From positions 1 through 56,115 of the IMG/VR virus record IMGVR_UViG_3300027881_000017: 56,115 bases of DNA; one strand, given 5' to 3'. The notes under the pieces were generated by a model that searched no databases, had not been told where the DNA came from, and worked only from the letters and a program-made list of their open reading frames with translations. The stretch is from a virus. A program made the translations under genes and the position numbers. Of this stretch, positions 19,730 through 23,358 are shown piece after piece; position 1 is the stretch's first letter; each line of letters begins with the position of its first letter.

Positions 19730-19747
19730 TACTTTCTCCTTTTTGGT

Positions 19748-20014
19748 TTAATACCATTTAATTTTTCCATCTAAATAATAGCCAACTAAATCCCAATCCT
19801 CATCGTAGAACGATGATTCAATTTTGCCATGAGTACCAATGTCCCACATTCTGTTTTTAAATTTTGTAAAAGCGCAATCTCTGAAAAATATTTGAAGATT
19901 ATATCTTTGACGCAGTTTAAAAACGATGATATTGGGATCATTAAAGAGCTTTCTTATAAGTTTTAATCGGCTCGGGGTAATATGGAGAGGTCTATCTCTT
20001 TTTTTAATTTTCAT
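19748..20014 (-). CDS. Small basic protein, unknown
   Basis: 88 residues from the ATG at 20014 (AAAGAG upstream); a longer reading to 20062 would overlap the preceding gene without better support. Basic N-terminus (MKIKKRDRPLHITPSRLKLIRK), aromatic C-terminus (DEDWDLVGYYLDGKIKWY). Follows the 20025 gene after 10 bases. No family recognised. Confidence 0.5.
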   Translation of the reverse strand: MKIKKRDRPLHITPSRLKLIRKLFNDPNIIVFKLRQRYNLQIFFRDCAFTKFKNRMWDIGTHGKIESSFYDEDWDLVGYYLDGKIKWY

Positions 20015-20279: not shown

Positions 20280-20301
20280 TACTTTCTCCTTTGTGGTTTT
20301 T

Positions 20302-20355
20302 GTCTAAGACCCGCCCGAAGGCAGGTTTCGGATATTAAATCCTCATCGGTTAGAC
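20302..20355 (-). ncRNA. Hammerhead ribozyme-like RNA (type I)
   Basis: 54 bases on the minus strand in type I order: stem I GUCUAA, core CCGAUGA, stem II GGAU-UUAAU-AUCC, GAAA, stem III CCUGCC-UUCG-GGCGGG, then UC, and stem I closing strand UUAGAC. Stem I is 6/6, stem II 4/4, stem III 6/6 with one G:U, the A15.1-U16.1 pair is present, and cleavage would follow the C of UC. The single departure from the consensus core CUGAUGA is C for U at position 4, which should weaken but may not abolish activity. It starts 2 bases after the stop of the 20357 gene and ends just before the leader of the 20025 gene. Confidence 0.72.
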
Positions 20356-20356
20356 T

Positions 20357-20779
20357 TTATTCTTCTTCCATAAATTCAACTAAATCTTCAACATCAATTA
20401 TAAACTGTATAGTTGCTTTTGCTTCCGCAACTTCACGAGCAACCCTTACTGGTGAACTTGAACTATGATAATGACCAAATATTCCGTGAGCATTATTAAA
20501 GTGACGTTTTTTCCAAATCTTAGCGTTGACAACTAACCATATTTTAAATTCAGAAAGACGAGATGTTTTCTGAAACTCATCATAAATCATCAACCAATTT
20601 CTTAATGCTGTTTCTGCTTCCATTGTTGCATCGCCATATGCTTCAAGTTGCATTGCAATAGTAAGAAATTCACAGTCTTTAACTTTGTCTTGAAATTCCT
20701 GAATAGTCTTTTCTGCTTTTGAAATGTGGCGATTAATTAATTTTGCTGCGTTGTTTTTGCTTTCTCTTGATTGTACCAT
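20357..20779 (-). CDS. Helical protein, unknown
   Basis: 140 residues, CACAAAGGAG leader. Mostly charged helix (AAKLINRHISKAEKTIQEFQ, ATMEAETALRNWLMIYDEF) with a His-rich turn (HFNNAHGIFGHYHSSSSP) and an acidic end (DVEDLVEFMEEE). No family recognised. A hammerhead-like RNA directly follows its stop. Confidence 0.55.
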   Translation of the reverse strand: MVQSRESKNNAAKLINRHISKAEKTIQEFQDKVKDCEFLTIAMQLEAYGDATMEAETALRNWLMIYDEFQKTSRLSEFKIWLVVNAKIWKKRHFNNAHGIFGHYHSSSSPVRVAREVAEAKATIQFIIDVEDLVEFMEEE

Positions 20780-21253
20780 TTTGTTTCTCCTTTGTGGTTT
20801 GTGTAAAATAGCCGCCAGTCAGGTCTTAAAACCTGCAACCTAAAATACTTGTCATCGATAAAATCGATCGGCTTGATTTTGGTATCGCTGGCGAAAAAGG
20901 AGTCGGGTTGTTTTAAGGATTCCTCCAGGAAATCGGCCTATCATCCGATTATGTCGTCCTGATGTCTATCTTTGATTTCACCTGCCTTATCACGCATAGT
21001 ACCAATGTTTCATCAAAAGAGATTACTACTGGTTTTTGGAAGTGTTTCAGGCTTATGTCTGCTCTATTCATTTTTTCCCGAGCCAGGGATGTGGAGGAGT
21101 TTGGGGTCAGGTGCTCCCGTTGAACCTGTTTGGTGTTGTTCACCACCCAATAAGAATATACACAATAAATAGACAGAAGTAAACAAAAAAAATTATTTTT
21201 TTTTATCTACTTTCATTTACCTTGCTTAAGTAGAAGAAAAATAATAGTTTAGA
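20780..21253 (-). other. 474-bp non-coding, structured region
   Basis: No convincing gene. Seen: (a) a three-way-junction fold directly before the 20779 gene: outer 6-bp stem 20813-20818 with 20888-20893, arms 20820-20824/20831-20835 and 20854-20859/20863-20868; (b) a hairpin 20931-20936/20945-20950; (c) an H-type pseudoknot candidate, GGAG 21093-21096 with CTCC 21114-21117 crossing CAGGT 21108-21112 with ACCTG 21124-21128; (d) an AT-rich tract 21181-21253. It could hold a promoter for the leftmost genes, a small RNA, or a replication element. Confidence 0.45.
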
Positions 21254-21589: not shown

Positions 21590-22445
21590 TTTTTCTTATC
21601 CAATGTTTTTGGATTACCTCAAGTGCGTTATCTAAATATTCCGATTCGGTTAAAAAATTGATACGACTAAGCTGCTTTCCTGATCTTATTTGATTTTCAT
21701 AAAACCAAAATTCTTGTAGTTCCATCCCTGTTTTCTTGTAACTAAGATCCCATTTAAATTGAACATGATCATTAAATAATAGCCCCGCGTTTATTATCTT
21801 TTCTTTTTGCTCAATCATATCTGTATACAGATGCAAGCTGGTAACAACATGAGTATATATTCCGATCGGTATTTCAAGCCAACGAGCCATGACTTCTTGT
21901 ATAAATGTAAACTGGCTGATGTCATATGGAAATCCCCACATCGCATCGTTCGATCTCATGTATCCTACCATATCGAGTCCGTTTTCAGATACCTTAAAAT
22001 TTAAAGCGAGCGTGCAGGGGGTATTTTCTCGGTCGCCTCGATTGTCTTCAAGATAGTTATAAATATTTACCACCGCTTGCCTGGTTTGTGGATCCCGCTT
22101 TAAAAGGCTATATATATATGGAAGCTGCTGAGATATCCTGTAACCGTAGGATCCCGGGTCTATGAAGTTTGATTCTACAAATCTACTATAGTTTTTGTTA
22201 TATGACGTTATGATATTTGGGTAAAAGCCGACGCCGCTGATATATGATAATTTTTCAATAATATTAAACGCGTAATTAAGCCTTCGTTCTTTTAACGTTA
22301 TCAGTGAATCGGCGGGGTTAATCTCCACGACATATGGCGTGTCGGCTGCTTCGTAATAAATTAATCCTCTACTTGTTTTTTCTACGCTTGCTATTCCGAC
22401 GCAATCAGACAGCACCTTTAAATAAATTTGATTGATACTTTTCAT
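21567..22445 (-). CDS. Thymidylate-synthase-fold deoxypyrimidine hydroxymethylase (dCMP type predicted)
   Basis: 292 residues, AAAGGAAAAA before the ATG. TS-family landmarks: SYGYRIS (99-105), RQAVVNIY (122-129), NTPCTLALNF with catalytic Cys144, GYMRSNDAMWGFPYDISQF (161-179), THVVTSLHLY (198-207). In thymidylate synthases the FPFN Asn reads dUMP; here it is Asp175, as in T4 gp42, which uses dCMP. I infer a dCMP 5-hydroxymethylase making hydroxymethyl-dCMP with methylene-tetrahydrofolate. Neighbouring dCTPase-like, kinase-like and glycosyltransferase genes fit this. Confidence 0.75.
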   Translation of the reverse strand: MKSINQIYLKVLSDCVGIASVEKTSRGLIYYEAADTPYVVEINPADSLITLKERRLNYAFNIIEKLSYISGVGFYPNIITSYNKNYSRFVESNFIDPGSYGYRISQQLPYIYSLLKRDPQTRQAVVNIYNYLEDNRGDRENTPCTLALNFKVSENGLDMVGYMRSNDAMWGFPYDISQFTFIQEVMARWLEIPIGIYTHVVTSLHLYTDMIEQKEKIINAGLLFNDHVQFKWDLSYKKTGMELQEFWFYENQIRSGKQLSRINFLTESEYLDNALEVIQKHWIRKNATKQEY

Positions 22446-23358
22446 TTACTTTTTCCTTTATTAATTTTGCATATTCGAGAATTTTATCATGTTTAAATCT
22501 AAGATAGTATTGCGGATGCGGAATGAGTTCATGTCTTATATTACACCTTTTTAATAAGTCAGCTGCTTTTTTCCCAAGAGCAATTACAATGCCTGGTTTT
22601 ATAGCAGCATTTTCGTTGTGCACCATCTCTTTATTAACAAAATCGTTTGATGTTTTTATTGCGTTTGTAATATAAAAATCTTGTTGATTTAATTTGGTCA
22701 ATTCTAATACCTGGTGCAAATATGCGCTTGAGTTAGAGTGATATGCAAATGCTTGTTTTCTGCTCGTTCCAATATATGATCCATCTCCATATTGATTGCC
22801 CACAAGCATGATTTTACCTCCATAAATGTTTCCAGAACATTCATACGAGGACATAGCAGCACTCCTACGACATAAAGAATCATAAAATGATAAAACATAT
22901 TCGATGAACCTATTATTGTGGTAAAGTGGCATAGAGATCATCGGTAGAATTGTCTTTTGTATAGTAGTTTCAAATAATTTTATTTCTTGTTGTATTTGAT
23001 CTTTTTTTATAAAGTTTTCATTTAGTTCGTCATGTTTTTTTCTTAAAAAATCAATGTTCGCCGAACAACATAATAACAATGCTCCTTTTGCTAATAAAAT
23101 TCTTTCAATCAAATGTTGTTCCCATGTTTCAAACGGTTTCCGTCCAGGTTTCAAGTGTGGGTATACGCAGTTCCCAAGATGAAATCGATCAAGTACTGTT
23201 CGCAAGCTTCGTGTTAATGCTTTTTCTGCATAATATTTTAATGGTTCGATGTTTTGAGGAGGCGGCCCTTCATGGACATGGTGGTAGTTTAAAATCCTTG
23301 CTAATTTTTTTGCAAGAGTTGTTTTTCCTGAATTGTTTGGTCCTTCAATTATTATCAT
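22405..23358 (-). CDS. P-loop dNMP kinase fused to a uracil-DNA-glycosylase-fold domain
   Basis: 317 residues. N-terminal half (1-165): Walker A GPNNSGKTT (6-14), LDRFHLGN (56-63, the DR(Y/F)H motif of thymidylate and nucleoside kinases). C-terminal half (181-300): LVGNQYGDGS (185-194) at the place of the UDG GEAPG loop, AFAYHSNSSAYLHQVL, FYITNAIKT (228-236), IVIALGKKAADLL and IPHPQYYLRF (279-288), the pattern of family-4-like UDGs. The catalytic acidic residue of ordinary UDGs is not evident. The kinase would phosphorylate hydroxymethyl-dCMP; the second domain could check or exchange bases. The fusion inside a modification operon is the oddest gene here. Confidence 0.7.
   Translation of the reverse strand: MIIIEGPNNSGKTTLAKKLARILNYHHVHEGPPPQNIEPLKYYAEKALTRSLRTVLDRFHLGNCVYPHLKPGRKPFETWEQHLIERILLAKGALLLCCSANIDFLRKKHDELNENFIKKDQIQQEIKLFETTIQKTILPMISMPLYHNNRFIEYVLSFYDSLCRRSAAMSSYECSGNIYGGKIMLVGNQYGDGSYIGTSRKQAFAYHSNSSAYLHQVLELTKLNQQDFYITNAIKTSNDFVNKEMVHNENAAIKPGIVIALGKKAADLLKRCNIRHELIPHPQYYLRFKHDKILEYAKLIKEKVNEKYQSNLFKGAV

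Follow-up and report, generated by a model that had tools for sequence, protein, structure and literature searches.

A 54-nt element lying on the minus strand between two small phage genes is quite probably a genuine type I hammerhead self-cleaving ribozyme in which the core base U4 is naturally replaced by C, and it would be one member of a large intercistronic set in phages, as judged from its sequence and that of its relatives. U4 has been treated as obligatory in hammerhead searches; here the U4C mutant is a recurring natural form. The window, by which we mean the whole stretch of 56,115 nt that was analysed, is the record of an uncultivated tailed phage in which portal, terminase, tape-measure and replication genes are present.

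Fold, core and gene junction

Read on the minus strand with its 5′ end at 20355, the element is GUCUAA-CCGAUGA-GGAU-uuaau-AUCC-GAA-ACCUGCC-uucg-GGCGGGU-C-UUAGAC, the ribozyme strand being that of both flanking genes (Table 1). When compared with the CUGANGA / GAAA / UH core, every position is matched except U4, which is C in the window; the core thus reads C3 C4 G5 A6 U7 G8 A9 and G12 A13 A14, with C at H17 and a departure at position 4 only. The topology is type I, with stem I open and stems II and III closed by loops. The initial annotation had placed a near-canonical hammerhead at 20302-20355, a position that proves exact, on the minus strand and with the hammerhead as the minimum-free-energy (MFE) fold, and the type I order, GAAA, UC step, UUCG cap and single C-for-U change that it described are all confirmed in the sequence. 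Its stem lengths of 6, 4 and 6 bp hold for stems I and II but not for stem III, which has 7 bp counting A15.1-U16.1 (6 beyond it). It was also right that the element begins in the intergenic space after a stop codon, although the distance is a single base (20356, next to the stop codon at 20357-20359) and not two.

Table 1. Coordinates of the ribozyme, its parts and the flanking genes in the window
Feature	Position	Strand	Detail and basis
Type I hammerhead ribozyme, C4 core variant, 54 nt	20302..20355	(-)	MFE fold, covarying relatives
Stem I 5′ strand, GUCUAA	20350..20355	(-)	6 bp with 20302-20307, from sequence
Core C3-A9, CCGAUGA	20343..20349	(-)	Sequence; variant base C4 = 20348
Stem II, GGAU/AUCC, 4 bp, loop UUAAU	20330..20342	(-)	Sequence; consensus in relatives UNANU
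Core G12 A13 A14	20327..20329	(-)	Sequence
Stem III, ACCUGCC/GGCGGGU, UUCG tetraloop	20309..20326	(-)	Sequence and MFE fold
Predicted cleavage site, after C17 (20308), before U (20307)	20307..20308	(-)	Triplet GUC; inferred from hammerhead architecture
Stem I 3′ strand, UUAGAC	20302..20307	(-)	Sequence; would become the 5′-OH end of the downstream mRNA
Upstream gene, 140 aa	20357..20779	(-)	No family match; TAA stop 1 nt before ribozyme
Downstream gene, 84 aa	20025..20279	(-)	No family match; ATG 22 nt past ribozyme
Shine-Dalgarno AAAGGAG of downstream gene	20286..20292	(-)	Sequence; within the 28-nt post-cleavage leader (20307-20280)

The MFE fold has a free energy of −18.1 kcal/mol (z −2.76), a value reached by 1 of 200 shuffles, and the hammerhead is retained when 30-100 nt of native flank is included. 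A plus-strand reading was ruled out, as it folds more weakly and lacks the hammerhead order. Chance assembly had been called very unlikely, and this is borne out by simulated sequence of the window's composition: a descriptor allowing at most one core mismatch, stems of at least 5, 4 and 5 bp and short loops found no match in 200 Mb, which puts the chance of such a pattern in the window below ~6e-4.

No orthologues of the flanking proteins were found in viral contigs or in the loci of relatives, blastn gave no match in named phages, and a scan with another window protein (uracil-DNA glycosylase/thymidylate-kinase-like) found no relative either; with neither flanking gene yielding a homologue, the window copy stands without an orthologue among the compared loci. 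The description of these genes as early is plausible, as they are small orphan genes within a minus-strand block for replication and nucleotide metabolism. Several of the orphan genes nearby share near-identical leaders (AAACCACAAAGGAGAAA...ATG; window 20280-20301, 19730-19750 and 20780-20800), but only one of them has a ribozyme. Upstream of the 140-aa gene, ~470 bases (20780-21253) hold no clear gene and are perhaps a leader or promoter region; the minus strand of 20780-20990 is moderately structured (z −1.76). Within the window there is also an ORF (22405-23358) whose N-terminus matches thymidylate kinase and whose C-terminus matches uracil-DNA glycosylase; it adjoins a thymidylate-synthase-like gene, and the content of the two suggests a putative modified-base metabolism.

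Relatives, covariation and Rfam scores

A first pattern scan, for the C4 core with a UUCG loop, returned 104 stretches, among which two loci (L082 and L083) alone had three paired stems, different from those of the window; the remaining matches, in which the stems are absent, were treated as chance. A second scan that dropped the UUCG loop found further C4 copies and, among the matches listed, canonical U4 copies in the same loci. A model (R1) was built from 11 sequences, and because the window copy is one of them, its R1 score of 64.4 bits (E 1.4e-14) holds by construction. R1 matches number up to nine per phage record (G017, the record of L310). Eleven base pairs have changes on both sides, a number reached in 0 of 500 shuffles but biased because the rows had been chosen for pairing, and compensatory changes occur in all three stems. 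For a fair test, DNA patterns therefore fixed the core and the closing pairs only and left the rest of the stems free, the retrieval patterns demanding the other core bases, AA/UU in stem I and C15.2-G16.2. Full pairing was found in 29 of 38 matches to the C4 pattern (shuffled mean 1.35) and, among the matches listed, in 139 of 154 matches to the U4 pattern (shuffled mean 1.04). The paired stems are thus backed by covariation. The initial annotation had pointed to covariation in related phages as a check, and C4 hammerheads with different, fully paired stems are indeed present at stop/start junctions in many phages, some of them adjacent to a canonical U4 copy of the same phage. Paired C4 copies occur as well in three contigs assigned to bacterial metagenome-assembled genomes (MAGs), and two of these contigs have several R1 matches. 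GroEL-linked matches in a Cellulophaga phage and a spring metagenome podovirus were set aside, as they have no R1 match.

The search with Rfam hammerhead models, the other computational check proposed, did not report a match: scans of the window gave no hammerhead call, including for Hammerhead_1 (RF00163). The RF00163 gathering cut-off is 34 bits, which the window does not reach, and the best U4 relative (L234) scores 31.3 bits; in seven loci comprising phage and MAG contigs (L297, L310, L312, L265, L329, L463 and L467), none of ~30 type I copies passes Rfam gathering. Because its score falls under the cut-off, the window copy is not filed as a member of RF00163 as curated. It has the strand order of that family, its three stems, its core except position 4 and its GUC triplet, and differs from it by C4, by lacking both a closed outer stem I and an internal loop and by the sub-gathering score. 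A large type I set at phage gene junctions, with the upstream stop often inside the ribozyme, has in this way been missed by Rfam thresholds.

A common architecture and the status of C4

The shared architecture was assessed on 185 unique strong-stem copies among the matches listed (159 U4, 25 C4 and 1 judged spurious). Among these listed matches, 163 of 185 have a stem I of exactly 6 bp; an A precedes the stem in 170, and A follows it at the first position in 156 and at the second in 141. Five-base loops II follow U-N-A-N-U (U1 in 146/146, A3 in 134/146 and U5 in 116/146), and most loops III are either GNRA or UUCG. The invariant 6-bp stem I, the A flanks and the UNANU loop suggest a possible tertiary contact between loop II and the flanks. 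In the window copy, inspection by eye gave no support for base pairing between loop II and the flanks, and stem I offers neither a closed loop nor a bulge through which the classical loop I-loop II contact could form, which makes a tertiary contact a guess.

The placement is equally regular. An upstream stop lies at the 5′ edge of the ribozyme, abutting or overlapping it in most copies; stem I often supplies it as UAA, and in 25 U4 copies among the matches listed core bases U4-G5-A6 form it as UGA, so that core and coding sequence overlap. Across the set the AUG typically follows the cut by about 23-28 nt. The ATG lies a median of 26 nt past the cut in U4 copies (among the matches listed) and 23 nt in C4 copies, and 24 of the 25 strong-stem C4 copies have an ORF ATG within 50 nt of the cut. 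A combined Shine-Dalgarno and ATG test was passed by 91 of 185 ribozymes (among the matches listed) versus 4.6% of random positions in the same loci, and in all 38 multi-copy loci among those matches the copies lie on one strand. The window copy conforms to the set: stem I is 6 bp long and flanked by A, loop II follows UNANU and loop III is UUCG, a stop codon sits at the 5′ edge, and the cut is followed by an AUG at a distance in the range of about 20-30 nt.

Paired C4 copies, ~50 in phage and metagenome contigs, fall into 24 groups by flank similarity. Intact, covarying stems are found in 31 of 39 unique C4 matches versus 0 of 26 unique matches to the same pattern with A or G at position 4 (Fisher p 1.8e-11). 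C4 is kept between orthologues with flank identity as low as 72.6%; in 17 orthologous pairs U4 occupies the same site as C4 (flank identity 74-92%), and at L167 and L191, where a single phage has both U4 and C4 copies, these resemble duplicates, with stems I and III shared or similar. The number of flank groups, the retention between orthologues and the U4/C4 exchange indicate that C4 arises repeatedly and persists, and the presence of C but not purines at this position points to a specific chemical tolerance. One apparent U4A copy (L314) was rejected as chance, since it falls within an ORF and departs from the architecture of the family. Several U4/C4 exchanges (L167, L191, L279 versus L355) coincide with a change at position 7, from CUGACGA to CCGAUGA, which may be chance or a preferred route; C4 is found with all four bases at position 7, so that a C4-U7 coupling is no rule.

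Predicted mRNA processing and its alternatives

In the minus-strand polycistronic mRNA, stems I-III would close the core and the RNA would cut itself after C17 (20308), most likely separating the two coding regions 28 nt before the downstream start codon. From the architecture we infer that the upstream mRNA would be left with a compact, structured 3′ end and a 2′,3′-cyclic phosphate, an end that is known hammerhead chemistry, and that the downstream mRNA would begin with a 5′-OH and a short 28-nt leader bearing the ribosome-binding site. U4-G5-A6 forms the U-turn of the hammerhead core, with position 4 as its turning base. A protonated C would replace U at this turning base, at a probable cost in rate; C4 would be tolerated because protonated C can stand in at this position, and N3 protonation in the U-turn would explain why C, and not purines, is found there. 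In the neomycin riboswitch U-turn, a U-to-C change is accommodated via N3 protonation (PMC6061696). As far as the account in PMC3088659 goes, U4C strongly lowers hammerhead activity in vitro, and a viroid hammerhead with U4C was slow in vitro and active enough in vivo (Ambros and Flores 1998, via PMC3088659). The viroid hammerhead as described there carries the identical single core substitution to that of the window, although its context is circular RNA replication whereas that of the window is a phage mRNA junction. By analogy, C4 probably slows the predicted cleavage.

The lowered activity that this source describes for U4C, together with the single hammerhead copy in the window phage, which has no canonical U4 sister, could also mean that the hammerhead is inactivated, and is either decaying or kept as a structured spacer or stabiliser of the mRNA 3′ end. 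We consider this improbable, since C4 recurs in 24 flank groups with stems paired as well as those of U4 copies, persists across large divergence while switching with U4, and has no paired counterparts with a purine at position 4. The recurrence of the entire architecture bears still more heavily on the idea of an ordinary UUCG intercistronic hairpin, serving stability or ribosome-binding-site accessibility, with the other stems and the core assembled by chance. Such hairpins are common in phage intergenic regions, and the stem III hairpin alone matches intergenic DNA of Stenotrophomonas phages (L478); however, three stems and core jointly have no chance equivalent in the 200 Mb of simulated sequence, and independent copies keep the whole architecture with another loop III, e.g., GNRA, which leaves very little room for this explanation.

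Alternatively, the C4 hammerhead might be slow or conditional, responding to pH, Mg2+, a protein or a translating ribosome, and thus act as a regulatory switch and not in constitutive processing. That the upstream stop touches or runs into the ribozyme in most copies would fit such a switch, since a terminating ribosome would cover stem I, as would the protonation that C+ in the U-turn requires; the same data are, however, explained by constitutive slow cleavage, and we regard a switch as unlikely. A somewhat broader proposal, that C4 hammerheads form a distinct phage subclass, made slower and pH- or translation-dependent by a protonated cytosine in the core U-turn, which sets the fraction of each polycistronic mRNA cut at a given junction, is tentative and on the doubtful side. 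The reading we prefer is still that of a genuine, naturally C4-bearing hammerhead at an mRNA junction.

Intergenic phage hammerheads and the idea that they process mRNA are known already (PMC3088659; PMC6155905). Perreault et al. 2011 described hammerheads in phages and prophages, including HF1/HF2 HHphage, PaP3, Bcep176 and clustered prophage copies, with clusters flanking single genes, and proposed mRNA processing (PMC3088659). Like that of the window, these are intergenic in phages and some lie close upstream of a start codon; unlike it, they carry other core variants (A6C, insertions). The 2011 survey, the largest published, discarded core mutants such as U4C unless activity had been shown (PMC3088659). 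Among the open papers searched, we found neither a recurring, persistent phage C4 nor an Rfam-sub-threshold set with stop/start placement. The intercistronic type I set bears on the question of what prokaryotic hammerheads do. Hammerhead_II (RF02276) copies in the Streptomyces phages R4 and Diane are likewise found mainly at junctions within a block of genes on one strand, but they are of type II topology and recognised by Rfam, whereas that of the window is type I and below the Rfam cut-off. R4 (L476, NC_019414) has eight and Diane (L477, NC_054663) nine type II hammerheads over the RF02276 cut-off, mostly at junctions of small genes, and both phages are cultured.
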